Shown here one piece after another: positions 24,005 to 63,766 of a stretch of 64,000 nt of DNA; the first letter of the stretch is position 1; the number at the start of each line of letters is the position of its first letter. The position numbers and the translations under genes are program-made. Source of the DNA: Imbricaverruca yamaguchii (Eukaryota; Arthropoda; Thecostraca; Neoverrucidae); the NCBI GenBank assembly GCA_034440575.1, contig JAOTOL010001343.1, forward strand, positions 460,001 through 524,000, in the 5' to 3' direction. The notes beneath the pieces were generated by a model that ran no database searches, was not told the DNA's origin, and was given only the letters and a program-made list of their open reading frames with translations.

Positions 24005-24298
24005 ATGGAGGCGCGCAGCGACGGCCCGCCTCGGGAGCCGGCCGCCGGGCTGGCCGGCCCGCGGCTGGAGGCGGCCGGCGCGCGGCCCGCCTCGCCCGCC
24101 TCGCCCGCCTCGGACGCGCCGCCGGCCGGCCGGTACCGCTGGCGGCTGGCCGAGCCCGGCGCCCACTGCTGGCCGCCGCCCACCACGCTCGAGCTGCCCG
24201 CGCAGGAGCTGGCCAGGGAGGCCGACAACAAACGGTACCGGCCGCAGGGGCCCGTCAAGAGACTGCTCGAGACGCACCACATCTTCACACTGAAGAAG
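24005..24298 (+). CDS. TUT4/7: TUT exon 1 (N-terminus)
   Basis: 98 codons from ATG at 24005 (context CACGAGATGG) to donor AAGAAG|GTGGGA. The Pro/Ala-rich beginning leads to [16 protein letters not shown]. Further 5' exons cannot be excluded. Confidence 0.7.
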
Positions 24299-30200: not shown

Positions 30201-33200
30201 AGTTGGCGCTGTGTGCCGAGCGTGACGTGCAGCTGGCGCGCCTGGTGCGGCTCTACGTGTCGCTGGACAGCCGCGTGGCGCCGCTGGCCACCGCGCTCCG
30301 CAAACTCGCCAGGGTGAGCACCGCCCCCTCCCCCACCGCGCACCGCAAACGCGCCAGGGTGAGCACCGCCCCTCCCCCACCGCGCCCCGCAAACTCGCCA
30401 GGGTGAGCACCGCCCCCTCCCCCACCGCGCACCGCAAACTCGCCAGGGTGAGCACCGCCCCCTCCCCCACCGCGCCCCGCAAACTCGCCAGGGTGAGCAC
30501 CGCCCTCTCCACCGCGCTCTGTAAACTCGCCAGGGTGAGCACCACCCCTCCCCCACCGCGCTCTGTAAACTCGCCAAGGTGAGCACCCCCCCCCCCCAGA
30601 TGGACCAGCACCGGGCCGGATCACTGACCTGGCCTGGCCTGACCTGATCTGACCTGATATGACGTGTGCTCGGCCGGCAGGTGTGTGAGATGGACCAGCC
30701 CCGGGCCGGGACGCTGCCGCCGGCGGCGTTCCTGCTGATGACGCTGTACTTCCTGCAGCAGTGTCAGCCACCCGTGCTGCCCGTGCTGCACGAGCTAGTT
30801 GGCTGTACACAGGATGACCTTGACCTCGGTATGTGTGCCCTGCTGTGCTCAACGAAGTGCCCTTCTCTGCTGTAGGACAATGACACCGATTAGTACATGC
30901 AATGTGGAATCATGGGGTGGACACTGCACGCCTCTGTCTGCCGGTCTGTCTGCATTTCTGTCTTGATGGTTGTCCTTCATTTTAACTTTGATGTAATGTC
31001 CTCCATTTTGACCTTGATGTAATGTCCTCCATTTGACCTGTGTCTGTCTGTCTGTCTGTCTGTCTATGTATGTTTGTGTCTGTATGTCTGCGACTATGCC
31101 TGTCTGACTGTATGCCTGTCTATCTGTCTATCTGACTATTCAACTGTGTGTTTGTGTGTCTATGTGTATTTGTAGGTATGCCTGTGTATGTGTGCCTATC
31201 TGTATCTATAGGTATGTCTGTGTCCTTGTCTGTTCTGCACTGCTGTATGAATATTATCTTTGTTTTCCTGTGTGCCAGTTTTCCCGGTATTTCCGGTTTC
31301 CCTGGTATGTATTTCATTTTGTCTCCGTCACCTTGGTCCGTTCCCATCACTATGTGTCAACTCCCCCCTTGTGTCCGCTGACAGGTGTAACAACTGGATG
31401 AGGGGCCCGGGGGATGTGTACTCACAATAGCCGGCTAAGCACTGCATTGCTCTTTGCATTTTGCATATTGAAAAAGAATTTGAGTTCGGACATATGCTGC
31501 CTGGGGCGTCGGTAGCTCGGTGGTTAAGCTGAGCGTCTGGCAAGCCAGAGGTACGGGTTCGATTCCCCGCGGCGCCCGCCCTTCCTGCCGGGGTGAGAGG
31601 CAGACGACGTCATATGGCCTCAGCTGCTTAGTGCGTCGTGAAGTCACAGTAAAGTCACAATTACCTAGGACATGTGCCTCCCCCAAATCCCAAATATTAA
31701 AGGCTGAACGCACGAAGCGGATTTGATTTTGGAATGGATCACGATAAGGATGGGCAATGGGCGATCATGGATTTGGAAGGGATATTTGCTTGGTATCGAA
31801 TTTGTCAGCATGTTTTTATTTTCCTTTCACCAGAGACACTGCTTTAATGCTCCCGTACTTTGAAATGCCGAATTCAAGTGTATAATTTAGCAATGTGATT
31901 ATGAAACATCGGTAGCCCTCCCCCAAGCAAAAAACAGGGTATATCAGATATGGCAATTTTTACACAACTACCCAGTCTACTATTATCGTGATGAAAGGCC
32001 GGGCTTAGAAACCCACATGAGTACATACAAACTCAAAGAGCACGAAGTTTGCACCCTCAAGCCTTCTCGCAAGCAAAATGAGAGTGCATTTTCTTTGGAG
32101 GGAATGATGTCGAGAATGACAGAAATCTAGCATAATGGTGCTTTCCAGCCATGTGCACAACTCTGTCTGCTTAACCCTACCTCTATATGCCTTTTCCATG
32201 TACTATGCATCTGCATTGTATCGATGTATTTGTCGGTCCCCGACTCTTACATGCATTTGTCGGTGTATTTGTCGGTCCCCGATTTGCTATACACGGTCCC
32301 TGATCGTTTGTGACTCTCCTGATCTCTCTAGAGGCGGCCAAAGCGGCGGCAGCAGACCGCTGGAGGACAAACAACACCGCCTGTCTGGGAGAGCTCTGGC
32401 TGCGGATGCTGCAGTTCTACCCGCCGCTGCTGACCTCCACTGACCTGGTGGTGTCCATACGTCAGCTGGAGCCGGTCACCAGGGCCGACAAAGCCTGGGG
32501 AAACAAGAAGATGTCGATTGAAGGTCAGTGGTCGGCCGGCGCGCGCCTCGTGCTCGCCTCCATGCTCTGCGGTCGGCAAGCGTTCCGCGCGCGCTCACGC
32601 TCGTTGGCCCGGTGGTGTTGTTGTCGCCTCGCCCCACTTGTAGCCGAAGAGCTGCAGGACCCAGGCCCCCTGTCCACGCAGGCCGCGTGGAGTGAGTGTG
32701 ACGATGCTGCGCGGCGAACCTCACCAACACGCGTCTGTCGAATGGGTCAATTTTGTCATTGCCGGCCGTCAAGTGCTTAAGTTATCTTAAATGAAAAGCT
32801 AACAAAGCCCCTCAAGAAAGTGATGTTTTGCCACGCAATACGCATGGATGTGCTGTGTCTGTTTTTGCTTCGATGCGACCAAGTGGACGAAACCTGAATC
32901 ATGCTGGAATCTAGTCTGCTTGAGCCACTAAATGGCCTAAAACCTGTTCCATCTGGCTGGCTTAATCAATGGTTTTGACCGTTTAAAAATGTGCGGCGGA
33001 GTAAACTATCCAGCGCTGTTCTCCGGTCGTAGAGAGCCCGCTCCTCCCAGGAGCGGGCTCCCTACGACTCCTAGATGGCTCTCACCAAAGCCCCTTTTGA
33101 TATGCAATCGCATGGTTGAGGTAGCTCAACGCGGCCGTGTCTCGTAGACACCAAGTGAATGTCGGCGCCGGCCGAGATTCGAACCCCGGCCCTGAGAGGC

Positions 33201-36200
33201 GGTTTTCGTTGTCAAACTGGCATCAGGTGTGGGCGGTGATGGCTCAAAATCGTTTTAGAGAAGTGGAAATGCTTTGTAAGACGTGGGAAAAAAATGCACT
33301 TCATATGCGGAACTTGAAGAATATTGCTCTATTGTCCCAAACCGTGGTCGCTTTGTTCTATCGGAATTTTCTTTACTTGTATTGTACTGTTTAGATGAAT
33401 TACCCTAAAGTTACATGGATATGCATTTGCTTTTTATCGAAATTAATTACCCTGATGAATACAATTTAGATTGTGAATTGTGAATTGTGCTCTGTCAACC
33501 CGCACACCTTGACGTGCTAACCCGCGCACCGTAGGTCCGGTACAGCCGTTAGCCCGCGCACCTCGGTGTGTCGCCGCAGACCAGATACAGCCGTTAACCC
33601 ACGCACCTCCGCGTGTTAGCCCGCTTACCTCGGCGTGTTAGTTCGCTTACCTCGGCGTGTTAGTCCGCGCACCTCGTCGTGTTAGCCCGCGCACCTCGTT
33701 TTGTTAATCCGCGCACCTTGGTGTGTCGCTGCAGACCCGATACTGTTGTTAACCCACGCACCTCGGCGTGTTATCCCGCTCATCTCGTCGTGTTAACCCG
33801 CTTACCTCGGCGTGTTAACCCGCTCACCTCGGCGTGCCAGCCCGCTTACCTCGGCGTTCCAGCCCGCTTACCTCGGTGTGCCAGCCCGCTTACCTTGGTG
33901 TGCCCGCTTACCTTGGTGTGCCAGCCCGCTTACCTCGGCGTGTCGCCGCAGACCCGGTACAGCCGAAGCGGAACGTGTCGCGCTCCATCAGCCGGCCGGT
34001 GGTGGCCGACGTGATGGTGGACCGGCTGCGCGCCGCCTGCCTGCTGTTCGGCGTGCCGCGCACCGCCGCCGGTGCTGCCATCTGTCTGCGGCCGGCCGAC
34101 CCCGCCGCCGCCGACGACGGCGACGACGACCTGGCGCCGACGCTGGACGCCATCGCCGAGCACATCTTCGTCTACAGCTTCGACGTGACGCTGCTGTGCG
34201 GCCATACGGTGAGCCGGGTGGGCTGCTGGCTGGCTGCTGCCGCCCCGCGGGCTGTACGTCAGTTGCCAGATTTCGACGGAGCTTCCCGGTGACGTGAGTT
34301 ACTCTGAGCGGCGATGATTGTGTTGTCAGCCCAAGTTGCGATGCCTATTGAATGGTATTAGTTATCATGGCAGAGCATGTCGGTGTTGTTGCTGTATGCC
34401 TCTATTCTGACAGCTTATACCGGCTGTATAACTCTATGTAAGCCAGGCGAGGGTAGTGTGGCGATTCCTGCGCTCCGGCAATAGTTCTGATTGTCAATGT
34501 CCACCTATGGCGGAGCATGCTTCTAATGGGATCACGGCAGATTGTGACTATGCACATGTATCCTGGCACGGTATACTGATGTTGTGACTACCTGTACCCA
34601 GGTAGAGTATACCGGTGGTGTGACTGTGTGCCTGTACCCAGGCACAGTACACTGGTGATGTGACTATGCACCTGTACCCTGGCAGAGTATACCGGCGGTG
34701 TGCCTGTGTATCTCTACCCCGGCAGAGTATGTCGGTGGTGTGGCTGTGTGCCTGCACCCTGACAGACTATACCGGTAGTGTGACTGTGTGCTTGTACCCT
34801 GCCAGAGTATGCCAGCGGTGTGACTGTGTGCCTGTACCCCGGCAGAGTATACCGGCGGTGTGACTGTGCCTGTACCCCGCCAGAGTATACCAGCGGTGTG
34901 ACTGTGCCTGTACCCTGGCAGAGTATGCCGGCGGTGTGATTGTGCCTGTACCCTGGCAGAGTATGCCGGCGGTGTGTCTGTGTGTCTGTACCCCGGCAGA
35001 GTATACCAGCGGTGGCCTGTACCCCGGCAGAGTATACCAGCGGTGTGACTGTGCCTGTACCCCGGCAGAGTATACCGGCGGTGTGACTGTGCCTGTACCC
35101 CGACAGAGTATACCGGCGGTGTGACTGTGTCTGTACTCCGGCAGAGTATACCAGCGGTGTGACTGTGTCTGTACTCCGGCAGAGTATACCAGCGGTGGCC
35201 TGTACCCCGACAGAGTATACCGGCGGTGTGACTGTGCCTGTAGGGACCCTGGCAGAGTATGCCGGCGGTGTGTCTGTGTCTGTACCCCGGCAGAGTATAC
35301 CAGCGGTGTGACTGTGTCTGTACTCCGGCAGAGTATACCAGCGGTGTGACTGTGCCTGTACCCTGGCAGAGTATGCCGGCGGTGTGATTGTGTCTGTACC
35401 CCGGCAGAGTATACCAGCGGTGTGACTGTGCCTGTACCCCGGCAGAGTATACCAGCGGTGTGACTGTGCCTGTACCCCGGCAGAGTATGCCAGCAGTGTG
35501 ACTGTGTCTGTACCCTGGCAGAGTATGCCGGCGGTGTGACTGTGCCTGTACCCCGACAGAGTATGCCAGCTGTGTGACTGTGCCTGTACCCCAGAAGAGT
35601 ATGCCAGCGGTGTGCCTGTGTGTCTGTACCCCGGCAGAGTATGCCAGCGGTGTGACTGTGCCTGTACCCCGCCAGAGTATACCAGCGGTGTGACTGTGCC
35701 TGTACCCTGGCAGAGTATGCCGGCGGTGTGCCTGTGTGTCTGTACCCCGGCAGAGTATATCAGCGGTGTGACTGTGCCTGTACTCCGGCAGAGTATGCCA
35801 GCGGTGTGACTGTGTCTGTACCCTGGCAGAGTATGCCGGTGGTGTGACTGTGTCTGTACCCCGGCAGAGTGTACCAGCGGTGTGACTGTGCCTGTACCCC
35901 GGCAGAGTATGCCGGCGGTGTGACTGTGCCTGTACCCCGGCAGAGTATACCAGCGGTGTGACTGTGCCTGTACCCCGGCAGAGTATGCCAGCAGTGTGAC
36001 TGTGCCTGTACCCCGGCAGAGTATACCAGCGGTGTGACTGTGCCTGTACTCCGGCAGAGTATGCCGGCGGTGTGACTGTGCCTGTACTCCGGCAGAGTAT
36101 GCCGGCGGTGTGACTGTGCCTGTACCCCGGCAGAGTATGCCGGTGGTGTGCAGCGTCTGCCAGAAGACCGGCCACCTGATCAACGAGTGTCCGACGCTGG

Positions 36201-39200
36201 TGGTGCCGCCGCCGGAGCCGCTGCCGGCCCTCTCCGACAGCTTCACCGTGCTGGACAACATCTGCTGGGACGTGTTCAGTGAGTGACGCGCTCAGCGCAG
36301 TCGGCCGCCACGTGCTTACTCTGTGCCGGCCGGCTAATGCTGGACGGTACCGCGGCTGGCGGCGGTGGAAGCTTCTCATTTCATCATTTTAAATTTCAGC
36401 ATTAAAATGGTATAATGCTTCTTCCAACTTTGTGCACTAACTTTCTACTTTAATTCCATCAGTTCCAACTTTAAGACACTAGCAGCGACCTTTTGCACTT
36501 ACAAACAACTAATACACCTATATTTACCACTGTTTCACCACACAAAAGTCGCCGGTTCTAGTTCAAAAATAGCCTTTAACCCCACATTTGCGGGAGTATT
36601 CAGTCAACTTCAGGTGGCTTAGGAGGCCATTATCCGTGAATGTGCATGAAGTGCGTCGTGAACCACCCAATAAACAAACAAGGTTGCTGAGGAGGAAGAT
36701 ATATGGGAGGATATATCCTGGAGAGGAACTGGAGAGGGCTCTCAGATATCCTCTCGGTATCTCAAGAACCAATGGGCCAATTTAGCTGATTCAAAGTGCC
36801 CGGGAACGTGTGACCCGCCACCACCGAGGTCACCAGTGACATCACCGGTTGATTCAAGTAAAACAATTTGATGACTGGGAATCTGTCTTCATCGAAGGTT
36901 CAACCAGAGATGCAGCCAAGGGGCGTATTCTGTGGGCTGGCATTGTCCCTTTGGGTACGAAAAGTAACATAAAAAACGAAGCACACAAACTATTTAAATA
37001 GCACATTTAAAGTGGTCTCAATCCGAGGACTTCTTGATTTTAAGTGCTTACGAGGGCAGTACTTCGTCCCGTCATTAGCCTATCACTAATATGCTATGCT
37101 AGATTGCCTCCCGAATTTTACGCGCGCTCCTATGTACTTTAGGGGCAAGCCACTTCTCAGAATTTATAGCCGCCGTATATCGTCTATACTAGGTTAACAT
37201 TAAAGCTTAGTATATTGTACAAATTCCAGGTCAAATTTCAGCATGGAGAAACAAAAATCTTAAAACATGGTATTAATAAGTGCAAGTGAACATTGAAAAG
37301 TTGGGCATGAGTGTTCAAGCACTACAGATAAGTAAGGAGAGTACAACATCTAAGAAGTGTGGAGCGAAGTGATTTTATGGTGAAAAAGTAATAAAACCTT
37401 ATATGAGGAAAACAGTTCGAAAAACAGATTCGTAACTTGTTCATTGATTGCATGGAAAACAAATGTCCATTTTGTCATGGTGCAATATTGTCGACTTTTT
37501 CGCCGTATCAGTACTTTGATATGTGGTTGCATGCAGTGTTACCTAACTTGGCTGTATTTCCATATCGTGCAAATTATATTTTGTAGGAAATATGCACTAA
37601 AATTGCATTATTTTAAACTCGTCATAGTTGTACATTGGGGTCGTGACGTTCAATCCGAGGTCAAGCCCTGACGATAGGTATAGAACATTGGCTCTGTACC
37701 GAACTATGGTCCTGTGACTGACCGTGGTCCCGTACCTGACAGTGATCTCTCACCTGATAGTGGTCCTGTGACTGACCGTGGTCCCGTACCTGACAGTGAT
37801 CTCTCACCCGATAGTGGTCCTGTGACTGACCGTGGTCCCGTACCTGGTCGTGGTCCTGTGCCTGACCGTGGTCCACTACCTGACAGTGATCTCTCACCTG
37901 ACAGTGGTCCTGTGACTGACCGTGGTCCCGTACCTGACAGTGATCTCTCACCTGACAGTGGTCCTGTGACTGAACGTGGTCCCGTACCTGACAGTGATCT
38001 CTCACCTGACCGTGGTCCCTTACCTGACCGTGGTCCTGTGACTGACCGTGGTCCCGTACCTGACAGTGATCTCTCACCTGACCGTGGTCCATTACCTGAC
38101 AGTGGTCCTGTGACTGACCGTGGTCCCGTACCTGACTGCGATCCCTCACCTGACCGTGTCCTGTGACTGACCGTGGTCCCGTACCTGGTCGTGGTCCTGT
38201 GCCTGACCGTGGTCCTGTACCTGACAGTGATCTCTCACCTGACAGTGGTCCCTTACCGGACCATGTTCCAGTACCTGACTGCGATCCCTCACCTGACGGT
38301 GGCCCCGTAGCCGGCCATGGTCCTGTACCCGACCGTGGTCCTGCACTCGACCGTGGTCCCGAACTCACGGCACGCGGCGGCCGGCAGAGGGGTGCGCCCC
38401 GCCGCGCCAGGAGTACGTCCAGCGCCAGAAGATGCTCGCCGACATGGAGGCGTACATCCGGCAGCACGCGTTCCCGTCGGCGCGCCTCAGGCTCTTCGGC
38501 TCCAGCTGCAACGGCTTCGGCTTCCGCGACTCGGATCTGGACATCTGCATGACGTTCGACGACTGCTGCGACTCGCAGGTGAGCCGGCCGCTGCTGGGGC
38601 GTAGCGGTGGGCGCGCTGCCGGTCCGTCGGCCGCCGGTCGGCCGCCGCTGGGGCGTAGCGGTGGGCGCGCTGCCGGTCCGTCGACCGCCGGTCGGCCGCC
38701 GCTGGGGCGTAGCGGTGGGCGCGCTGCCGGTCCGTCGGCCGCGGTCGGCCGCCGCTGGGCGTAGCGGTGGGCGCTCTGCCGGTCCGTCGTCAGCCGGTCG
38801 GCCGCCGCTGGGGCGTAGCGGTGGGCGCTCTGCCGGTCCGTCGGCCGCCGGTCGGCCGCCGCTGGGGCGTAGCGGTGGGCGCGCTGCCGGTCCGTCGGCC
38901 GCCGGTCGGCCGCCGCTGGGGCGTAGCGGTGGGCGCGCTGCCGGTCCGTCGGCCGCCGGTCGGCCGCCGCTGGGGCGTAGCGGTGGGCGCTCTGCCGGTC
39001 CGTCGGCCGCCGGTCGGCCGCCGCTGGGGCGTAGCGGTGGGCGCGCTGCCGGTCCGTCGGCCGCCAGTCGGCCGCCGCTGGGGCGTAGCGGTGGGCGCGC
39101 TGCCGGTCCGTTGTCGCGCCGCGTCGGCCGCCGCTGGGGCGTAGCGGTGGGCGCGCTGCCGGTCCGTCGGCGCCGGTCGGCCGCCGCTGGGGCGTAGCGG

Positions 39201-49286: not shown

Positions 49287-49324
<38 letters not shown>

Positions 49325-52300
49325 AGATAGAAGGTGACGGGCGGGTACCGCCAGCGGCGGTGGCGGCGACGGCGAAGGGCGAAGGTGGCAAGCAGGCGAC
49401 GGCGGGACAGGTGGCGGTGGCGGTCGAGAGCCAAGGTAGCGAACAGGTGCCGCCGGGAGAGGCGGCAGTGGCACTAGCAGTTGCGGCGAAGCAGGCGAGG
49501 CGTGCTGCGAAACGGGCGGCGAGGCGTGCGGCGAAGGCGGTGAAACAAACGGAGCCAGCCGTAGACCAGACGGCTGGTTCGGTAGAGGAGGAAGCCCCGA
49601 TGCTTCCAGTCCTCACTACGACGACGGTGGCAACTTCACCTGCCGAAGACGTCGCTGTCGACGCCCTTGCCAACGCCGCTGTCGACGCCGCTGCCGACGC
49701 CGCTGTCAACGCCGCTGTCGACGCCGCTGTCGACGCCGCTGCCGACGCCGCTACCGACGCCGCTGCCGACGCTCTTGCCGACGCCCTTGCCCTAGCCGGT
49801 AAGACGAAGAAGAAGAAGAAGAGGCGGCCTCGTCACCGCCGGCGGCCGGACGCCGCCCCGGACGCCGCCCCGGACGCGATGGACGCGCCTGCTGCCGACC
49901 GCTCTCTGGTGTGCGCCAACTCGCAGCCGGCTGGAGAGGAGGCCGGCGGGTCGGCAGAGCTGCCGAACAGTTGCCGCTCTCTGGTGTGCGCCAACTCGCA
50001 GCCGGCTGGAGAGGAGGCCGGCGGGTCGGCAGAGCTGCCGAACAGTTGCCGCTCTCTGGTGTGCGCCAGCTCGCAGCCGGCCGGAGAGGAGGCCGGCGGG
50101 TCGGCAGGCTGCCGAACAGTTGCCGCTCTCTGGTGTGCGCCAGCTCGCAGCCGGCTGGAGAGGAGGCCGGCGGGTCGGCAGAGCTGCCGAACAGTTGCCC
50201 CGACGCCGCGTCCGTGTGAGGTCCCGCGTGGACCTCACAATGTGGTGCGGGCCAGGTGCTCCGGTCCTCCAGCGCCCCCATATCGTATCTTGCCCGCGAC
50301 CTGGCGCCCACTCTTGCCTGTCGTATCTTGCCCACGAACCAATGTTTTACCTGCATCGATGACGTTTGTACTGGACGTGAGCGGTTGCTGCGGCGCGAGT
50401 TTTATGGCGGGGTGGCGTGGCGCGGACGACAGAGGTCGAGGACGCTTGCGGTCGGCGACTGTCGTTCTTGGTCACGGGGCACGGGACTGGCTGCGACAGT
50501 TCCAGGGAAGGTTCATCAGTCTCAGTCTTCACTCTCAGGGAAGGTGCATCAGTCTTCATCATATCAAATGAAGCTGCCCTCTGTGGCAGACGGGTCCACT
50601 CACTCGAAATTGGTGCAGCCTGTGCCGACGTCGATTGGTCGCTAAGACCGAGTTGAGCTGTTGAGAAGTTGGTTGCTTGGTTTGATACCTGGAATATATT
50701 TAAATCACAAGTCAGAGTTTGTTGTCGCCCAGTTAAGACCTTCGCTGGAACTGTTGCGGCTGGGCACGTCTGCTGGACCGCCATCGACGTCTTGAAGCAC
50801 ATCGGCACCCAGTCCACTCGGTAGCTGGCGCACGCTCAACCGATCCCCAAGTTTGCACCACGTGGCGAGTATTGGGTCTTAGCTGGTTAATACTCACTAA
50901 TTTATCAGTTTGTTTACCTTTGCATTGTATGGTGTCGGCGCCATTTGTACAGTTGTTCGTGGACATCGGCAGCGAATGGCCACGATTGTCGGTGCCGATT
51001 CCCTCCCTGGCTTTATGCTTCCGCTTGGCGCGCCGTACTCTTAATGTAAGAAGAACGCACACGCTGGCTCGCGGGTCACAGTGTGTGCTGCCCCGCCAAG
51101 GAAAACCGTCAAGCTGTTCCAGCTTCATTGCTGAATATTTGGGAGGTGGAATGTGGGAAGGAACGGGTGGGAGGTAGTTATGTAGGAATTAGTAGGTGCG
51201 AGGGGGGGATGTGGGAATAAATATGTGGGAGGTAAGGATGTGTGAATGAATGGGTGGGATGTAGGGATGTGTTAATGAGTGGGAGGTGGGGTGCGGGGAT
51301 GAATATTTTGAATGTGGGAATTGATATATTGGAGGTGGAGATGTGAAAATGGAGATGGAGAAAAAGAGCAATAGCGAGATAAAAATATGTTGAAATACCG
51401 ATGAGACGTGGAAAGCAAGACTGCGGGTAGTTCGTCGCCAGAGCAGACATACGTGCGCTGGTGTTCCATCGTTGTCCAACAGGCGGACGACACACCCGTT
51501 CCTTCCCACATTCCACCTCCCAAATATTCAGCAATGAAGCTGGAACGGCTTGACAGTGTTCCTTGGCGGGGCAGCACACACTGTGACCCGCGAGCCAGCG
51601 CGTGGGTTCTTCTTACATTAAGAGTACGGCGCGTCAAGCGGAAGCATAAAGCCAGGGAGGGAATCGGCACCGACTATCGTGGCCATTCGCTGCCGATGTC
51701 CACGAACAGCTGGACAAATGGCGCCGACACCATACAATGCAAAGGTAAACAAACTGATAAATTAGTGAGTATTAACCAGCTAAGACCCAATACTCGCCAC
51801 GTGGTGCAACTTGGGGATCAGTTGAGCGTGCGCCAGCTACCGAGTGGACTGGGTGCCGATGTGCTTCAGGACTTTCTCTCTTTCTTCTTTGACACAAATT
51901 TTTCGCGCCATGGGGACCGAATGTCTTGGACTACTTGCGGGGCGTATTATAGCGAAAGCAGCAATGTTTGGCGGAGTCCCGGTTGTGTGTGTTCCGTGAA
52001 TAGTGCGGGAGACGCATGAATTCCAACTGGTGGTTTCGATATCGCTCCTTTCCGAAGAGCGGTCAGGTCATTTGATCGTTCGGCCACACTCCACTATGGA
52101 TTCATATGGAGACAGACATTTCGGATGCGAATAGGCGCCTTGGCATTTTTCAGCTCTTGATCATCAGGTCTTGTGTAAGTTAAGGCGACAGTTCGTGCAT
52201 TGCCACGTTGAAACGAATTGGTACCACACTGCGGTACGTGTGGCATTCTGTGTTAGATCCATACCATCGGCTTCCGTCAGCTGTGGTGTAAGGCATCCCT

Positions 52301-55150: not shown

Positions 55151-55881
55151 ACCCCTCATTCTCGGATCCCGCACGCCATCCTCTCTTCACGTGCCGTACG
55201 TACAAATTGATCCGTCCGGCGCCTGCTGGACGAACCTGGGGCGATGCATTGTCGATCGACTGTACACAGTGTGCGTGGGTTGTAATGGGGTGTCCGTCGG
55301 TGCCCCGGTTGTAGAAATCGATCAGCCCATCGCTTTTCTTTTAGCCTGTTTTTAGCCTGATTTCATCCTGTTTTTTCCCGATGTATTCCAGTGACGATTT
55401 AGCTGCTGTGGAGTGGTTGCGTACGTTATTATTATTGTCTTAGCCGGTTGTGTCGGTCGCGACGGTGACCTTACCTTTTACGGTGGCGACTTTTACACAG
55501 TTGTTGTTTCACACTGGTCCGGGTGAGGTGACCGACCCGGGCGCGATCTCCGTGTATTCGCGTGAGCCGGCGTCAGTCGGCCAAGACCTCAGCAATACAC
55601 CTGGCGTCGCCGGACACTGGTCTGCGGCCGGGCCTCGGCCCCAGCCGGACGCCCCACCGGCGGGCCACAGCTATCGGTACAATCACCGTACAACCACCAC
55701 CGACGGTAGATAGCATGGTGAACAGGTCCGGCCGGCGGCCGGCGCGGGCAGCAGCGCGACCGTGTCCACGAAGCGGAGGGAGGCGGATCCGGTGGCGCGC
55801 GACCGGCGGCTCAGTTCGCATCGACGCGACGTCCGACTGGTGCTGCAGTCTACTACAGTGTTGGGGCGCCGTCGGCGGAGT
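55151..55881. other. Intergenic, between convergent 3' ends
   Basis: Must contain the 3' untranslated regions and polyadenylation sites of both convergent genes. No AATAAA is visible in the expected place on either strand. Confidence 0.45.
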
Positions 55882-56114
55882 CTAGTATCCGCCGCCACCA
55901 CCACCGCCTCCGCCGCCACCGCCACCGCCACCAGCGCCGCAGTCGGGCTGCGCCGACTGGGAGGTGTGGCGGAGGCGTGTGCCCGTCAGCGGGTCGACGC
56001 AGTAGCACTGGCTGCCGACACACTGGCGCGGCTGGTAGTCGCCTCGGGCGTCGCAGGACACGGTCAGACCGCGCACGTGGCCGCGCCGCACCTCGTACTC
56101 GCGCCGGGCGCAGT
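55882..56114 (-). CDS. TY-1 gene, last exon (module 6, poly-Gly end)
   Basis: Acceptor GTCCCGGCAG|ACTGCG. H-CARREYEVRRGHVRG, LTVSCDARGDYQPRQC, GSQCYCVDPLTGTRLR, SAQPDC form a complete six-Cys module. Then GA, a run of 15 Gly (GGN repeats with mixed third bases), Tyr and TAG at 55884-55882. Confidence 0.9.
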
Positions 56115-59100
56115 CTGCCGGGACGACACGCACGTCTGGTCAGGGACAGAGCCTCCAGGTCAGGGGTGCATGTCAGCTGTACCCTGCAGAGACAGGGTAC
56201 AGAGCCTCCAGGTCAGGGGTGCACGTCAGCTGACCCTACAGAAGCTCCAGGTAAGGTGTACACGTCAGCTGTACCCTGCAGAGACTCAAGGTCAGGGGTG
56301 CACGTCAGCTGTACCCTGCAGAGACTCAAGGTCAGGGGTACACGTCAGCTGTACCTTGCAGAAGCTCCAGGTAAGGGTACCCATCAGCTGAACTCTGCAT
56401 AGGCTCAAGGTCAGGTGTTCACATCAGTTGTACCCTACAGAGGCTCCAGGTAGGGTGTACACGTCAGCTGTATCTACAGAGGCTTCAGGTCACGTCCATA
56501 CCTATGTCAGATGTACCTAACAGAAACTCCAGGTGCCCATCAGGTCGAGTACATGATGGGTACAGCAGACAGCACATAGAAGCATGTGATAGTTGTGGTG
56601 GCGCTGTCCTGCTGATACTTACGGCCTTCTTCGGGCGAACAAGTCTGCTTATTTGCCTCTGAACTGCGCCAAAGCGTAGTTGCCAGACAGTTAACGGTCA
56701 CACCTGGCTTACTGCTTGCGGGCATCACCCTTCAAAAGGTGGCCAGAAACAACCACCAAGCCGGGAGATTTTGCATGAACAAGTCACGTCGTCGGATGAC
56801 TGGTACAGCCTTTGTTTTATGCGCCCTATCCGACCACATCAAGAGGAGAAATTACGTCTATGATGCTTGAGTATGCCACATACTGCTGGCGGATCGGGTG
56901 TGATATATCAACTGACACGCCTGTCCCTCGGTGGGTCAGGCGTGCTGTTCCCTGTCCCTCGGTGGGTCAGGCGTGCTGTTCCCTGTCCCTCGGTGGGTCA
57001 GGCGTGCTGTTCCCTGTCCCTCGGTGGGTCAGGCGTGCTGTTCCCTGTCCCTCGGTGGGTCAGGCGTGCTGTTCCCTGTCCCTCGGTGGGTCAGGCGTGC
57101 TGTTCCCTGTCCCTCGGTGGGTCAGGCGTACTGTTCCCTGTCCCTCGGTGGGTCAGGTGTGCTGTACCCCGTCCCTCGGTGGGTCAGGCGTGCTGTTCCC
57201 TGTCCCTCGGTGGGTCAGGCGTGCTGTTCCCTGTCCCTCGGTGGGTCAGGCGTGCTGTTCCCTGTCCCTCGGTGGGTCAGGCGTGCTGTTCCCTGTCCCT
57301 CGGTGGGTCAGGCGTGCTGTTCCCTGTCCCTCGGTGGGTCAGGGCGTGCTGTTCCCTGTCCCTCGGTGGGTCAGGCGTGCTGTACCCTGTCCCTCGGTGG
57401 GTCAGGCGTGCTGTTCCCTGTCCCTCGGTGGGTCAGGCGTGCTGTACCCTGTCCCTCGGTGGGTCAGACGTGCTGTTCCCTGTCCCTCGGTGGGTCAGGC
57501 GTGCTGTACCCTGTCCCTCGGTGGGTCAGGTGTGCTGTACCCCGTCCCTCGGTGGGTCAGGCGTGCTGTTCCCTGTCCCTCGGTGGGTCAGGCGTGCTGT
57601 ACCCTGTCTCTCGGTGGGTCAGGCGTGCTGTACCCTGTCCCTCGGTGGGTCAGACGTGCTGTACCCTGTCACTCGGTGGGTCAGGAGTGCTGTACCCTGT
57701 CCCTCGGTGGGTCAGGCGTGCTGTACCCTGTCCCTCGGTGGGTCAGGCGTGCTGTTCCCTGTCCCTCGGTGGGTCAGGCGTGCTGTACCCTGTCCCTCGG
57801 TGGGTCAGGCGTGCTGTACCCTGTCCCTCGGTGGGTCAGGCGTGCTGTTCCCTGTCCCTCGGTGGGTCAGGCGTGCTGTTCCCTGTCCCTCGGTGGGTCA
57901 GGTGTGCTGTACCCTGTCCCTCGGTGGGTCAGGCGTGCTGTACCCTGTCCCTCGGTGGGTCAGGCGTGCTGTTCCCTGTCCCTCGGTGGGTCAGGTGTGC
58001 TGTTCCCACTACCTGCCCTCGGTGGGTCAGGTGAGCTGTACCCTGTCCCTCGGTGGGTCAGGCGTGCTGTACCCCGTCCCTCGGTGGGTCAGGCGTGCTG
58101 TTCCCTGTCCCTCGGTGGGTCAGGCGTGCTGTTCCCTGTCCCTCGGTGGGTCAGGCGTGCTGTACCCTGTCCCTCGGTGGGTCAGGCGTGCTGTACCCTG
58201 TCCCTCGGTGGGTCAGGCGTGCTGTACCCTGTCCCTCGGTGGGTCAGGCGTGCTGTACCCCGTCCCTCGGTGGGTCAGGTGTGCTGTACCCCGTCCCTCG
58301 GTGGGTCAGACGTGCTGTACCCTGTCCCTCGGTGGGTCAGGCGTGCTGTACCCTGTCCCTCGGTGTGTCAGGCGTGCTTTATCCTGTCCCTCGATGGGTC
58401 AAGCGTGCTGTGCCCTGTCCCTCGGTGGGTCAGGCGTGCTGTACCCTGTCCCTCGGTGTGTCAGGCGTGCTTTACCCTGTCCCTCGATGGGTCAAGCGTG
58501 CTGTACCCTGTCCTCGATGGGTCAAGCGTGCTGTACCCTGTCCCTGGTGTGTCAGGCGTGCTGTACCCTGTCCCTCGGTGGGTCAGGAGTGCTGTACCCA
58601 GTCCCTCGGTGGGTCAGGAGTGCTGTACCCCGTCCCTCGGTGGGTCAGGCGTGCTGTGCCGCCGACTGACACGCCTGTCCCTCGGTGGGTCAGGCGTGCT
58701 GTACCCTGTCCCTGGGTGGGTCAGGGTGTGCTGTACCCCGTCCCTCGGTGGGTCAGGTGTGCTGTACCCTGTCCCTCGGTGGGTCAGGTGTGCTGTACCC
58801 TGTCCCTCGGTGGGTCAGGTGTGCTGTACCCTGTCCCTCGGTGGGTCAGGCGTGTTGCACCCTGTCTCTCGGTAGGTCAGACGTGCTGTACCCTGTCTAT
58901 CGGTGGGTCAGACGTGCTGTACCCTGTCTATCGGTGGGTCAGGCGTGCTGTACCCTGTCCCTCGGTGGGTCAGACGTGCTGCACCCTGTCCCTCGGTGGG
59001 TCAGGCGTGCTGTACCCTGTCCCTCGGTGGGTCAGGCGTGCTGTACCCTGTCCCTCGGTGGGTCAGGCGTGCTGTACCCTGTCCCTCGGTGGGTCAGGCG

Positions 59101-62100
59101 TGCTGTACCCTGTCCCTCGGTGGGTCAGGCGTGCTGTACCCTGTCCCTCGGTGGGTCAGGCGTGCTGTACCCTGTCCCTCGGTGGGTCAGGTGTGCTGTA
59201 CCCTGTCCCTCGATGGGTCAGGCGTGCTGTACCCTGTCCCTCGGTGGGTCAGGCGTGCTGTACCCTGTCCCTCGGTGGGTCAGGCGTGCTGTACCCTGTC
59301 CCTCGGTGGGTCAGGCGTGCTGTACCCTGTCCCTCGGTGGGTCAGGCGTGCTGTACCCTGTCCCTCGGTGGGTCAGGCGTGCTGTACCCTGTCCCTCGGT
59401 GGGTCAGGAGTGCCACCGCGCGCCACTCACGACAGGTGGCGCTGTCCTCCGGCCGAGACTGGTACCCAGACAGCTGTGTGCCGGCGGGGTCGGCGCAGAA
59501 GCAGAGGCCGCGGTGGCACTGTCTGGCGGCGTACCCGCCGTCCCGGTCACACTGGGGCTGACGACCGGTGCCGGCCAGGCGAGCCGCGGCCACCTCACAC
59601 GCCCGGTCACCGGGGGTGTCCTGCTGTCTGGTGCCGGTCACCGGGTCCACCTGTGGTACAGTCACAGTCCCGGTCACCGGGGGTGTCCTGCTGTCTGGTG
59701 CCGGTCACCGGGTCCACCTGTGGTACAGTCACAGTTCAGGTCACCGGGGGTGTCCTGCTGTCTGGTGCCGGTCACCGGGTCCACCTGTGGCACAGTCACA
59801 GTCCCGGTCACCGGGGGTGTCCTGCTGTCTGGTGCCGGTCACCGGGTCCACCTGTGGCACAGTCACAGTCCCGGTCACCGGGGTGTCCTGCTGTCTGGTG
59901 CCGGTCACCGGGTCCACCTGTGGCACAGTCACAGTCCCGGTCACCGGGGGTGTCCTGCTGTCTGGTGCCGGTCACCGGGTCCACCTGCGGTACAGTCACA
60001 GTCACAGTCCCGGTCACCGGGGGTGTCCTGCTGTCTGGTGCCGGTCACCGGGTCCACCTGCGGTACAGTCACAGTCACAGTCCCGGTCACCGGGGGTGTC
60101 CTGCTGTCTGGTGCCGGTCACCGGGTCCACCTGCGGTACAGTCACAGTCACAGTCCCGGTCACCGGGGGTGTCCTGCTGTCTGGTGCCGGTCACCGGGTC
60201 CACCTTCAGTACAGTCACAGTCACAGTCACAGTCACAGTCCCGGTCACCGGGGATGTCCTGCTGTCTGGTGCCCGTCACCAGGTCCACCTGTGGCAACAG
60301 TTACAGTCGCAGTCCATGGGCGCTGATGACCGAAGCAGTCCATGCGTCCCTAAGCCCAAATGACCAACCAACCAACAGTCGCAGTCCCGGTCACCGGGGG
60401 TGTCCTGCTGTCTGGTGCCCGTCGCCGGGCTTGGGTCCGGTGTTCGGCACGGTGCAGCTGATACCGCCGTACCACTGGTAACGCTGCGCCACCGACAGCG
60501 GCCATACCGCTGGCAACGCCCGTACCGGGTAGCATTCGGAGCCGATGCACTGTCGCAGCTCGTAGTTGCCGAGCGAGTCGCAGCGCAGCGAGCGTCCGAG
60601 CAGCCCCTGGCGGCGAATCTCCCACTGGCGGCGCGCGCAGTGACAGTGCATCTGCGCCGACTGCGAAATGTGCGCCGAGTAGTCGGACAGCGGCCGGTTC
60701 TCCGGGTCCACGCAGCTGCACCGGCTGCCCTGCAGACGCGTGCGAGAGGGGAGGGCACTGTCAGCAGACTCTACCGGTGGGATTGGGCCGACACATCGAA
60801 CGACTGGTCGCGTCCGAAACTGGAACACGCTCGACACAACAACAAAAAAACAAATATGGTAGGAAAGCTTAGTGATGCAAATTTGGGTACGTCACCTGTT
60901 ACAGCATTCCTCAGTAAGCGAACCGAAAAGCAAGTAGCCAAATAGAACAAGACACGCGACATAGCACAAGAAAAGAACGGAAAACTGTCGCTGATAGACT
61001 GAGGCGCAGCCAAGCGGAGGGCATGCGCCCCGGGCCCGTCTCCATTAGCACCAAAAAGACGCTAGGTCGAGGAAGATATTTTGAGATTTTCGCCACGCAA
61101 TACCATATTTTTTGTACGCATCAAGTGCGCCTAAAGCCTTTTCTATTTCATTACATTTCGGGAAAATCTCCCCCTACCCTTAGGAAAACCCTGGGTGCGT
61201 CACTGCTGGTAGAGTATTATTAAGCAAACTTAATGAGTTCCAGACTTCTACCGAGCCGGGAACCTTGGTCCTGACGGATGGAACCGTCGTCCAATAACGG
61301 ATGCAGATATTTTCATTGGGAGGGAGACGTCTGGACAAACGCCATTGCGGAAGTCCATGAAGGGCGCCTTCGGCTGAAAATCTGTTGAGCGGGGAGGGTG
61401 TGTGAACTTGAGTGTATTGAAGGAGAACTTTTGCTTTCATGTGAGCGCCTGCACCTCTGAGAGGGTCCTCTGACCGATAATTAGATACAGGGGGAGGGGT
61501 GAACTTGGGACTCCTCTGAGCGGCACCTTCTCCAGGCTACAGGAGCGCCACTTTTCCATGGTGAGGAAGGAAGTGCTAGTGGTACATGCCCCAGTACCCC
61601 CACCCCTGTATCCGCCCCCTGTCGTCGCCTGTGGCTGTGCCCGGCGACGGCTAGTGGTGTGACGCACCTGGCACTGTTTGGCGGCGTACTGTCCGTGGAT
61701 GTCGCAGACGGGCGCAGCGGCGCCCAGCCGTGTCGGGCCGCCGCCGGCAGTCAGTCGCTTCTGCTCGTCCCAGCACTTGTGGTTGGCGCCGAGCGGCGCG
61801 CAGATGGCATCCAGTCGCTCCACCTCCGAGACGTGTACACTCTGGTGCCACATAGGTCACATATAGGTCACACAAAGGTCACAGTTCAGCGGGACGTCTT
61901 CTCCAGCCGCTCCACCTCCGACACGTGTACTCTGATGCCACATAGGTCATACATAGGTCACACATAGGGTACATATAGGTCACAGTTCGGTGGGACTCCC
62001 TTTCCAGTAGCTCCACCTCCGACACGCTTGCACGCTTGAGTTTGGTGAAATAAGTCGCATGTGACTGAGGACGTTACTTCAGCTTCAGCCCTTCCATCGC

Positions 62101-63766
62101 CGACATGTACATATTTTGAGATATAAGCTCCAATAGCTATACTGCGCACACCATTTGCGTCAAGTTTTGGCGGAAGTGCAAGCATTCCATCAATGATGTA
62201 CAACTAATGCTAAAATATCGGCATGATGCATTCAAATTGAAATACCGGTACGGAATTCGGCAGTGTCCTGGTTTCGAATACAGTGGAACCAATTTCGGCT
62301 GAAGCACATTTCATAAAGTTCGTAATTATTCATTGGCGGATTGGGTCGTCGAATGCTATATACAGTGCAGACATATTTGCTTTCAATGTGCCGCGCTTGT
62401 ATGCAAGAGGTTCTTGCAGTGGCGCAACCAGGAATTTCCAAAGGAGAGAGCGACGAAGAAAATATTTGAAGGAACAAAGAAAGCGTTCAGCGTGCAGAAA
62501 CTTTCCGATTTCTGTGATGAAAATGTCAAATTTATCGTTTGATCTAGTGCATTTTCGGTTGGTAAGGGAAGTTTTCATGCAATTGGCCGTAAATGGCATC
62601 ATCCTGAACGCATGGACTCTTGACCTTGACTGTTTGCTGACACTGTAGTGACATGTCCGACTGTCTTCCTAGGTGAAAACTGATCCTGGTTACTTGCGGC
62701 ATTGATTGTTTCATACTATTAACGGACTCTTCATGCCACCTCGTAAATTTATCCACTGTCACTGACCTTCAACCTGAAACATTGACTTCAAAATGTTGGA
62801 GCGACAGTACAATCATAATGCAGGCTTTAGAAACTCCTAATGCAGCTAAACCCGAGGATATTTGGGAACGCCACGGGACTATCAAATGTGTCCGCATAAC
62901 CCAAAAGCGATTATCCCTCCCAAGCGAGCCTGGATCCGCCCCTGCAGCTGCGACCCCACTGACCTCCAGGCCGGGCCGCTTCTGGCCGGTGAGGTGGTCG
63001 ACGCAGTAGCAGCTGGAGCCGAGGCACTGGTGGGTGTGGAAGTTGCCCAGCTCGTTGCACGTGATGGACACGCCCACACGACGGCCGGCGGCCAGCTCGT
63101 ATTTGCGGCGGGGACAATCTGGGGTGGGGGCGGTGTCAAGGTCAGTCGACTGACGGCTGGCTGCAGGATCGCCGTGGCGACGTGTGCAGATGCTGTCCCA
63201 CAGGTGCGCTACGCCCACGTGGCAGCGGCGTGACACGAACTGACACGTGTGACAACGACATGCATGAGTGCATATGCTACCTGGTGCAGTTTGTCCCGAA
63301 TCATGCGTGCGGTGCTGTTCCTCTTGCGGACTGATCCACTCCATCCAGTGCTATGTGGCCTAATATTGAATTATTGAAGTTTCGGTGGTATTCGATCAAC
63401 AGCTGAGAACGTCGCACCCAGTGGCGCAGCCAGGATTTCCCTGAGGGGCCGACTAAAGATAACGTGACGAAAAATAGGAAGCTTCCGGCGCACGAGACGC
63501 GCCGAAAATCCAGGATTTTGTGTGGTGAAAATATCAATTGTTAATTTGATTTGGTGTATATTTGGTTGTCAAGAGGAGGCCAGGTCCCTAACTTGGTTGC
63601 GTCTCTGATCACACCCCACGTCCGGCACAGCCACCCTCGCCTGGCAGCACTCTGCCAGAGCCGGACAGTGACACTCACGGCACTGCATGTCCTTGGCGTC
63701 CCAGATGTGTCTCTCGTAGCCGTCGATGGTGTTCCCCTCCGGATCGACGCAGCGACATTTGGAACC
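55882..63766 (-). CDS. Multi-domain thyroglobulin type-1 protein (3' part, 6 exons)
   Basis: Exons in transcription order: 63766-63679, 63118-62964, 61823-61668, 60729-60526, 59650-59431, 56114-55882. Every junction is GT-AG and in phase, giving 351 residues. They form the second half of one and five further thyroglobulin type-1 (TY-1) modules, with QC, CxCV and closing Cys motifs. TY-1 modules are cysteine-rich extracellular domains that in several proteins inhibit papain-like or aspartic proteases. The last module is followed directly by GA, 15 Gly, Tyr and a stop. The 5' end, signal peptide and other domains lie beyond the window, so the protein cannot be named; a secreted TY-1 repeat inhibitor or matrix protein is the best guess. 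Introns hold large minisatellites and DNA-element fragments. Confidence 0.85.
56150..56535. repeat. ~42-bp CAGCTGTACCCTGCAGAG array
   Basis: About nine diverged units with GTCAGCTGTACCCTGCAGAG and CTCCAGGTCAGGGGTGCAC. It adjoins the acceptor of the last TY-1 exon but does not contain exon sequence. Confidence 0.85.
56536..56924. other. No gene seen
   Basis: Non-repetitive intron sequence between two arrays. Confidence 0.45.
56925..59412. repeat. 31-bp minisatellite, about 80 copies
   Basis: Unit CCCTGTCCCTCGGTGGGTCA + GGCGTGCTGTA/T. Very homogeneous on the left; variants (CCCGTCCC, GTGTGTCAGG, CGATGGGTCA) cluster at 58340-58560 and 58860-58990. Since 31 is not divisible by three but the unit has no stop in any plus frame, three long overlapping frames arise, all spurious. 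It fills the intron 3' of TY-1 exon e and ends 18 bp from its donor. Confidence 0.97.
59431..59650 (-). CDS. TY-1 gene, exon e (end of module 4, module 5)
   Basis: 73 codons plus one base. VDPVTGTRQQDTPGDRACEV then GRQPQCDRDGGYAARQC and GLCFCADPAGTQLSGYQ, ending DSATC|GTGAGT. Only one Cys (DRAC) is present where the last Cys of module 4 and first of module 5 would both be expected. Confidence 0.85.
59640..60420 (-). repeat. ~66-bp array carrying the acceptor of TY-1 exon e
   Basis: Minus-strand unit contains CACAGGTGGACCCGGTGACC + GGCACCAGACAGCAGGACAC + CCCCGGTGACCGGGACTGTG, 11 copies. Exon e itself begins at the last one (CACAG|GTGGACCC), so each unit is a copy of the 3' splice site plus about 55 exon bases. 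(GTGACT)n expansions occur at 60000-60240. Confidence 0.95.
60322..60376 (+). mobile_element. SINE family D fragment (copy 2) inside the array
   Basis: GCTGATGACCGAAGCAGTCC then CCTAAGCCCAAATGACCAAC and CAACCAAC, matching 22072-22136. It interrupts the penultimate repeat unit. Confidence 0.65.
60526..60729 (-). CDS. TY-1 gene, exon d (end of module 3, module 4)
   Basis: 68 codons, phase 0 to 0. GSRCSCVDPENRPLSDYS to AQMHC closes module 3. HCARRQWEIRRQG to CIGSECYP opens module 4. At the exon end the usual CxC reads C-Y-P, so Cys 5 is missing. Confidence 0.85.
60940..61225 (-). repeat. Possible non-autonomous DNA element end
   Basis: Minus strand begins CCAGCAGTGACGCACCCAGG, like the CAGTGRCGYA..CCAGG ends of many MITEs. 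The opposite end was not delimited. Confidence 0.3.
61330..61560 (+). repeat. Interspersed repeat E, copy 2
   Basis: GGGCGCCTTCGGCTGAAAAT and GAGCGGGGAGGGTGTG match the minus strand of 8640-8905. Confidence 0.5.
61668..61823 (-). CDS. TY-1 gene, exon c (end of module 2, start of module 3)
   Basis: 52 codons, phase 0 to 0. VERLDAICAPLGANHKC gives the closing Cys of module 2 and first Cys of module 3, then PVCDIHGQYAAKQCQ|GTGCGT. The acceptor (GTCTCGGAG|GTGGAG) has a weak pyrimidine tract and is duplicated upstream in the intron. Confidence 0.8.
61824..62040 (-). repeat. Short array duplicating the acceptor of TY-1 exon c
   Basis: The exon start (GTCTCGGAG|GTGGAGCGACTGG) recurs upstream as GTGTCGGAGGTGGAGCGGCT (about 61920-61901) and GTGTCGGAGGTGGAGCTACT (about 62024-62005), each separated by TGTGACCTATRTGTGACCTA words. 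Confidence 0.85.
62041..62400. other. No gene seen
   Basis: Intron sequence of the TY-1 gene without recognised features. Confidence 0.4.
62418..62590 (+). repeat. MITE-like element, copy 1
   Basis: Starts CAGTGGCGCAACCAGGAATT; later GATGAAAATGTCAAATTTAT and CATTTTCGGTTGGTAAG. Aligns with 63418-63590. Confidence 0.55.
62880..62963. other. Short DNA-element-like end beside exon b
   Basis: Minus strand reads GCAGGGGCGGATCCAGGCTC, a GGCGGATCCAG motif as at other MITE-like ends. It starts about 10 bp downstream of the exon b donor. Confidence 0.3.
62964..63118 (-). CDS. TY-1 gene, exon b (module 2)
   Basis: Phase 1 to 0. Starts H-CPRRKYELAAGRRVG; contains SITCNELGNFHTHQC and SSCYCVDHLTGQKRPG. 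Donor CTGGAG|GTCAGT. Confidence 0.9.
63418..63590 (+). repeat. MITE-like element, copy 2
   Basis: Starts CAGTGGCGCAGCCAGGATTT; ends GGTGAAAATATCAATTGTTA and TATATTTGGTTGTCAAG. Shares order of blocks with copy 1. Confidence 0.55.
63679..63766 (-). CDS. TY-1 gene, exon a (C-terminal half of module 1)
   Basis: Acceptor CTCTCAACAG|GGTTCC, donor CAGTGCC|GTGAGT, phase 0 to 1. GSKCRCVDPEGNTIDGYERH ... DAKDMQC supplies cysteines 4, 5 and 6 of a module begun upstream. Confidence 0.85.

Follow-up and report, generated by a model that had tools for sequence, protein, structure and literature searches.

Tandem arrays that copy splice junctions at exon edges in a barnacle-like genome, probably mirage-type minisatellites

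The window analysed here, a stretch of 64,000 nucleotides, holds two genes in which tandem arrays copy the splice junction beside them, and it raises the question of whether such arrays come from a process aimed at splice sites or from repeat growth that reaches exon edges along with everything else. The first gene is a terminal uridylyltransferase (TUT): the joined translation of its exons 1-13 matches the human TUT4 chain 9w4r_A (1.6e-156), Pfam TUTase and PAP_assoc domains are matched in the translation, and exons 14-16 were modelled from reading frame and splice sites alone. In the TUT protein, the alignment to human TUT4 flanks the exon 5 donor, the exon 8 acceptor and the exon 9 acceptor on either side. 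The second gene carries Thyroglobulin type-1 (TY-1) repeats (Pfam PF00086, 8.6e-38), and its closest match is a thyroglobulin-like protein of the barnacle Pollicipes pollicipes (63% identity). The features of both genes are collected in Table 1.

Table 1. Genes and tandem arrays of the window, with positions counted from its first nucleotide.
Feature	Positions	Strand	Unit, copies and relation to exon	Basis
TUT4/7-type terminal uridylyltransferase gene	24005-55150	+	16 modelled exons	exon models, homology
Crossing array, TUT exon 5 donor	30288-30598	+	junction 30313/30314; unit ~45 bp, 6 further copies, GT kept in 6/6	
Array of partial copies, TUT exon 8 acceptor	33554-33943	+	exon start 33952; 3 further copies	
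Crossing array, TUT exon 9 acceptor	34591-36150	+	exon start 36134; 38-bp unit, ~41 copies	
Array before TUT exon 10 acceptor	37707-38359	+	18/54-bp unit, ends 28.5 bp before acceptor; no junction copy	
Array after TUT exon 10 donor	38585-39524	+	54-bp unit, starts 6.5 bp past donor; no junction copy	
Degenerate array over TUT exon 11 donor	41884-41956	+	junction 41899/41900; 30-bp unit; absent from the first-pass annotation	TRF
Array before TUT exon 13 acceptor	44264-44781	+	18-bp unit, ends 16.5 bp before acceptor; no junction copy	
Array before TUT exon 14 acceptor	46852-47385	+	19-bp unit, ends 48.5 bp before acceptor; no junction copy	
Coding array within TUT exon 15	49899-50199	+	75-bp unit	
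Coding array within TUT exon 16	53319-54263	+	unit a multiple of 3 (36/72/108 bp)	
Thyroglobulin type-1 (TY-1) repeat gene	55881-63766	-	6 modelled exons (a, c to g)	Pfam, exon models
Array near TY-1 exon c donor	56920-59413	.	31-bp unit, ~80 copies, 17.5 bp from donor; no junction copy	
Crossing array, TY-1 exon c acceptor	59595-60315	-	exon 59431-59650; 67-bp unit, 9 further copies	
Duplicated TY-1 exon e acceptor	61842-61984	-	exon 61668-61841; 1 full copy at offset 92	

All 40 modelled junctions of the window were searched for copies by gapped local alignment, a copy being counted when it lay on the intron side, covered 8 bp or more of exon and 6 bp or more of intron, and scored at least 30, a score reached by 0 of 512 shuffled controls. 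Copies were found at five junctions (one donor and four acceptors), exactly those that the first-pass annotation had named, while an ungapped version of the test was positive at only three of the 40. The best copy of the TUT exon 8 acceptor spans 14 bp of exon and 12 bp of intron. In the array at the TUT exon 9 acceptor the units match at 86% and the AG is kept in 40 of 41 copies, and in that of the TY-1 exon c acceptor it is kept in 9 of 9. The crossing of the TUT exon 11 donor reported by TRF was unconfirmed by the alignment tests. Units differ in sequence and length from one window array to another, which rejects a single repeat family, and unrelated genes, those of myosins and kinesins, bear such arrays too (see below); the annotation was thus right to see a recurrent process.

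Other arrays lie beside exons and copy no junction. The annotation had placed them within 0-40 bp of an exon, which holds for TUT exons 10 and 13, while the array at exon 14, 48.5 bp off, is therefore slightly outside this range. For the last TY-1 exon, which ends at 56114, the claim stands by a two-copy TRF row (56141-56242, about 26 bp away) and falls by the merged array row, which starts 83.5 bp away.

The annotation had picked the window for its exon-edge arrays, so that figures from outside it are the fairer ones. We therefore turned to myosin and kinesin genes of the same genome, where exons were modelled from profile matches together with a generic splice matrix, so that unannotated exons persist within the 'introns'. 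The myosin sample comprised 56 exons in 20 stretches, from the 72 matches listed, and gave 99 of 112 possible junctions; the kinesin sample comprised 45 of 126 matches, in 12 stretches selected for having exons near one another, and gave 81 of 90. Junctions lacking a splice site scoring at least 3 were excluded. Copies were present at 16 of these 180 junctions (10 donors and 6 acceptors), a further myosin donor match (L016, offset 1337) having been set aside because it was read as a neighbouring paralogous exon. Overall, 21 of 220 junctions, about 10% of those sampled, carry such arrays. Our results show that exon-edge arrays are real and common in the sampled genes.

Whether they are commoner than the repeats around them is another matter. 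About one fifth of the introns of the sampled genes is tandem repeat, and a copy was found in 21.2% of 108518 intronic position tests versus 7.8% of 8129 exonic ones (3.1% in myosins, 0.8% in kinesins and 24% in the window, whose figure includes its coding arrays). In the window, 12.5% of junctions are covered, as opposed to 27.8% of 5122 tests at random intronic positions, and array coverage near junctions never exceeds the intronic plateau. The excess of exon-boundary overlaps over array density, on which the annotation had let its idea depend, is absent from the sampled genes: outside the window 16 of 180 junctions are covered, against 33.6 expected from intronic density. Array ends also fall in the last 60 bp of exons at the GC-matched rate (22 versus 19.6 expected, P=0.32; outside the window, 17 versus 15.7), which speaks against the suggestion that slippage or repair is focused on splice-junction sequence. 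A different result is obtained with an alignment-based null for array birth. Birth climbs with GC content, the rate going from 1.8% to 6.0% over the bins, and mean GC at junctions is 60%; with GC matched, 21 junction arrays were observed versus 10.2 expected, an excess of about two-fold, and outside the window 16 versus 8.1 (P=0.008, P-values here assuming independent junctions). The observed number falls to 14 (P=0.034) without the two arrays shared by the second kinesin copy, and to 12 (P=0.11) when two weak arrays are also removed. Whether junctions appear to have more arrays than chance hence hinges on the choice of null.

Taken at this level, the exon-crossing arrays need no process aimed at splice sites and mostly look like ordinary repeat growth; high repeat density and GC content can explain most of what looks like a striking pattern beside exons. 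The annotation knew of no standard description of such arrays, and in this it was wrong: the structure has been named 'mirage' in amphioxus, where such minisatellites occur in Adh3, the globin genes BflGb6 and BflGb9, troponin C and PGBD5 (PMC3087553, PMC3902484). As described there, amphioxus mirages share with the arrays studied here tandem units that span the exon/intron boundary (PMC3087553, PMC3902484), and also the involvement of both 5' and 3' boundaries, units of 10 to about 160 bp, and an AG or GT retained in many units (PMC3087553). Their copy number varies between haplotypes. Here it may be unstable as well: two related kinesin copies, the only pair that could be compared, have the same two junction arrays with 10.7 versus 9.7 and 8.3 versus 10.0 copies. 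The differences lie in scale and in lineage. The reports considered treat amphioxus mirages gene by gene, whereas here about one in ten sampled junctions is concerned and one of them has about 41 units; and the present genome, barnacle-like, belongs to a different phylum. Among the open-licence literature matches listed, the name in its minisatellite sense was found only for amphioxus. Mirage-type arrays are thus known in amphioxus and now in another phylum.

We consider it likely, with a probability of roughly three in four, that the exon-edge arrays are mirage-type minisatellites grown by ordinary tandem duplication in a repeat-rich genome. Under this explanation a short, often GC-rich segment would duplicate in tandem, in a genome rich in intronic repeats, and units would then be gained and lost through slippage or unequal exchange. 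Where the founding segment straddled an exon/intron border, the extra copies, with their splice dinucleotide, would end up on the intronic side, and the exon would keep the outermost copy as part of itself. Such a duplication would probably be tolerated because the gene retains an intact exon. Splicing would have to pass over the copies by position, through exon definition, since copies often score like the true site: in 20 of 21 arrays at least one decoy scores equal to or above the true site with a generic matrix. Normal splicing is assumed here; in amphioxus it is suggested by the Adh3 data and by RT-PCR of the globins (PMC3087553). With some 10% of junctions bearing arrays, this genome could therefore show at scale how splicing ignores equally good decoys. 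It could also show whether exon-edge arrays ever alter gene structure. A human case is the 31-bp VNTR of CBS at the exon 13/intron 13 boundary, a minisatellite over the splice donor in which donor sites are repeated. It is a single polymorphic locus, unlike the many junctions found here. Human internal tandem repeats resemble the present arrays in that minisatellites alter gene structure, some of them at exon-intron boundaries, and differ in that they belong to paralogues in segmental duplications and half of the repeats are coding (PMC2812944).

Mirage-type growth does not explain one feature of the data, a pile-up of array ends over the initial 30 bp of introns. Overall, 26 ends fall there versus 8.3 expected with GC matching, and outside the window 16 versus 6.8 (P=0.002). 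The explanation that best survives beside mirage-type growth, and that is compatible with it, is that selection acts as a wall: array borders would drift outward and halt where splice signals would suffer, so that ends gather just inside introns. It accounts for the pile-up and agrees with its restriction to bp 0-30, the count at 30-400 bp into the intron being as expected (50 versus 52.5). We hold it as possible, and tentatively so, as exon edges do receive array ends at the base rate. Moreover, in the 15 abutting arrays that could be tested no similarity in phase to the exon is left (mean percentile 0.49 versus 0.56 for 306 control ends), and they are hence unlike worn-down crossing arrays; that eroded crossing arrays underlie the pile-up is accordingly unsupported.

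A second explanation is that duplication is focused on splice junctions after all, DNA damage linked to transcription or splicing, for example R-loops at intron starts, seeding the exon-edge arrays. The pile-up itself would follow from it, as would a coverage that, at every tested distance from -40 to +200, lies above the highest value reached when array positions were permuted 60 times, with and without GC weighting, although these permutations may seat too few arrays near junctions because they spread them over stretches that include unannotated exons and extragenic sequence. Arrays with at least 85% matches likewise cover 9.5% of junctions at +30, versus 3.0% of GC-matched free points. Against this stand the exon side, which has no excess of array ends, the coverage near junctions, which stays at or below the intronic plateau, and the origin of the pile-up outside the window, which comes from the myosins (15 versus 3.8) and is missing in the kinesins (1 versus 3.0). 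Junction-focused damage thus seems to us an improbable source of the arrays. We judge it just as doubtful that a DNA process linked to splicing or transcription locally favours the birth of arrays at intron ends, in the 30 bp or so next to splice sites, the crossing arrays being its visible tail; if true, the genome would be a mutational map of exon borders.

Tandem duplication is also a route to new introns, and the arrays could be the remnant of an intron-making event in which exon sequence containing AGGT was duplicated. Zhuo in 2007, and Gao and Lynch in 2009, are said to have described how introns arise from tandem arrays or are gained by tandem duplication. Published cases exist in other organisms, and in potato a tandem duplication crosses the intron-exon boundary (Ma 2016). 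What is shared, in these accounts, is that the duplicated sequence holds splice signals. The intron gained there is new, whereas here an intron's donor edge does not match its acceptor edge, for which reason we reject this explanation as very unlikely: over 58 introns, pairing the two edges of one intron gives no higher similarity than pairing edges at random (mean score 12.3 versus 12.5; top score 22 versus 24). Array junctions do share an intron position with sampled paralogues somewhat less often than others (2 of 16 versus 57 of 163, Fisher P=0.09), but a comparison restricted to array-bearing loci shows no significant difference (2 of 16 versus 10 of 44, P=0.49), and two array junctions lie at intron positions common to a paralogue that lacks the array.

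Selection for decoy splice sites, another suggestion of the annotation, is most improbable as the reason why the copies persist, and so is a regulatory role for them in splicing. The dinucleotides are indeed intact in 121 of 128 copies, their columns are 97.9% identical versus 94.8% for other intron columns, and of the 21 arrays 12 retain them better than other AG or GT, 3 less well and 6 equally well; yet other AG and GT of the same arrays are kept in 1021 of 1103 cases and the per-array comparison gives P=0.21 (Wilcoxon). It is equally hard to believe that local mis-joins of reads made false tandem copies at exon edges. Certain short-unit copies are almost identical, as at the L021 donor (offset 85 bp), but in several arrays the units have diverged, like those at 86% over some 41 copies, and the structure is found again in many contigs.

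In the two window genes, finally, the coding arrays have units that are multiples of 3, the mark that selection for reading frame would leave. Across the sample, 13 of 15 coding arrays have a period divisible by 3, as do 106 of 273 intronic arrays and 9 of 20 edge arrays. Twelve of the 15 coding arrays lie in the window, all with such a period. Against the explanation stand the three exonic arrays outside it, of which only one has such a period, two of the three being made up of roughly two units each, 14 bp long in one and 22 bp in the other.

Copies of each splice junction were sought on its intron side by gapped alignment, using models of the two genes in the window (22 exons, 40 junctions). 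Tandem arrays copying the exon edge and splice site had been proposed at five junctions by the first-pass annotation, and the test was positive at exactly those five. A sixth, degenerate array detected by TRF crosses the TUT exon 11 donor, where the alignment test for junction copies was negative. Neighbouring arrays end within 40 bp of an exon about as claimed, except for the exon 14 array, at 48.5 bp. About 90 bp before TUT exon 6, and next to the array at the exon 5 donor, the beginning of exon 6 is partly duplicated without its acceptor site. The genome holding the window measures 767 Mb. Judging from the match of joined exons 1-13 to human TUT4 (1.6e-156, three matching stretches), the plus-strand gene is a TUT4/7 terminal uridylyltransferase (TUT); the minus-strand gene, with a match to Pfam PF00086, encodes a thyroglobulin type-1 repeat protein (TY-1). 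Of three protein matches to its product the best, at 63% identity, belongs to the goose barnacle Pollicipes pollicipes, which points to a barnacle or a near relative as the probable source of the DNA.

Junction arrays and other features (window positions, unless a sampled stretch, L016, L024 or L025, is named)
Feature	Position	Strand	Detail
TUT exon 5 donor array		+	6 intron-side copies
TUT exon 8 acceptor array		+	3 intron-side copies
TUT exon 9 acceptor array		+	41 intron-side copies
TY-1 exon e acceptor array		-	1 intron-side copy
TY-1 exon c acceptor array		-	9 intron-side copies
Partial copy of TUT exon 6 start	30590-30640		
Nested inverted repeat, TUT intron 13	45102-46229		four pairs of arms (71-168 nt; complementarity 85-92%)
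TUT exon 15 coding array with frame shift	49899-50199		
Inverted repeat between TUT exons 15 and 16	50789-51872		arms 324 and 65 nt, 96-97% complementary
TUT exon 16 coding array with frame shift	53319-54263		
Kinesin exon, L024	1541-3066		crossing arrays at acceptor (74-bp unit) and donor (57-bp unit)
Kinesin exon, L025	1565-3119		as in L024
Myosin donor copy, L016	offset 1337		set aside

Outside the window the survey took in myosin and kinesin genes from this genome, and 17 of 180 called junctions had an intron-side copy. One of these, at a myosin donor, was interpreted as an adjacent paralogous exon and excluded, which leaves 16/180. Junction arrays are therefore general among the sampled genes, with units unlike one another. 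Two of the 16 reappear in a second, related copy of a kinesin gene (L024 and L025, both on one contig; 95.7% and 93.6% identity over the two longest aligned pieces), and array copy numbers differ between the two gene copies. In the L016 myosin stretch, three adjacent exons match near-identical myosin-head positions (376-439), as in mutually exclusive exons.

These junction arrays are of a kind already known from amphioxus, although the phylum is different. In PMC3087553, tandem arrays spanning exon/intron borders of amphioxus Adh3 are named mirages and are described in globin genes too; the authors report length instability, and take their Adh3 data, together with RT-PCR on globins, as suggesting that splicing is regular. 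Troponin C and PGBD5 are further mirage genes in PMC3902484. Within the open-licence literature searched, the name mirage was found for amphioxus only.

Three nulls were applied to the junction arrays; their answers differ, and all are given. Under the density null, 21.2% of intronic test positions have a copy; outside the window 16 junctions were observed against 33.6 expected from intronic density (P=2e-4, that is, fewer), and in the window 5/40 (P of so few = 0.03). TRF coverage is about 22% on the intron plateau, 9.5% at the junction itself and 0.5% once 60 bp into the exon, a falling profile without a junction peak. The special claim that arrays favour exon boundaries is thus refuted by the comparison with array density that the first-pass annotation had itself proposed.

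Under the birth null, in which every array is cut to one unit and randomly placed, 21 junction arrays were observed against 7.1 expected, or 10.2 with GC matching (P=0.0015); mean junction GC is 60%, and array birth increases with GC content. Outside the window the figures are 16 against 8.1 (P=0.008, weakening to 0.034 and then 0.11 on dropping shared and then weak cases). With arrays placed at random in the stretches, predicted coverage is 2.5% (junction) and 5.2% (+30 bp), or 3.2% and 6.6% with GC weighting; the observed 9.5% and 21.8% exceed all 60 permutations of each kind. When array-free points serve as the start, an array is met by +30 bp at 10.4% of 163 array-free junctions outside the window, versus 4.7% of GC-matched array-free points.

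The third null walks outward from exons and compares array starts with GC-matched intron. Over 220 junctions, the first 30 bp of intron hold 26 array ends against 8.3 expected (three-fold, P=6e-7); the last 60 bp of exon hold 22 against 19.6 (P=0.32), and intron at 30-400 bp holds 50 against 52.5. Outside the window the first 30 bp give 16 against 6.8 (2.4-fold, P=0.002). Myosins account for 15 of these (3.8 expected) and kinesins for 1 (3.0 expected); the exon-side counts there are 12 for kinesins (7.1 expected, P=0.06) and 5 for myosins (8.6 expected). We conclude that exon-crossing arrays occur at or near base rate, with a GC-matched excess of at most about two-fold. The build-up of array ends immediately inside introns is separate and uneven, and neither GC content nor, in the cases tested, erosion of exon copies explains it. 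Hidden similarity to the exon was looked for in the 15 testable arrays that abut a junction without crossing it; none was found, so these arrays do not resemble eroded remnants of crossing arrays.

Unit length is divisible by three in 13/15 coding-exon arrays, 106/273 intronic arrays and 9/20 edge arrays. Because the coding figure is 12/12 in the window's two genes and 1/3 outside, a reading-frame filter on coding arrays is shown for the window only. As a border-crossing array leaves one exon edge intact, it would escape such a filter. Copied splice dinucleotides (decoys) are kept about as well as other AG/GT of the same arrays (121/128 and 1021/1103 copies intact, respectively; by array, higher in 12, lower in 3 and equal in 6; Wilcoxon P=0.21). 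Since a decoy scores at least as high as the true site in 20/21 arrays with a generic matrix, splicing would presumably be guided by position or exon definition. An origin as AGGT-type new introns is disfavoured, as donor and acceptor edges compared in 58 introns were not alike.

Three-frame translation of this assembly shows that the arrays within the coding sequence of TUT exons 15 and 16 shift frame partway along, which may represent a real allele or sequence error. The long nested inverted repeat of TUT intron 13 resembles a fold-back element, and a further inverted repeat lies between exons 15 and 16.
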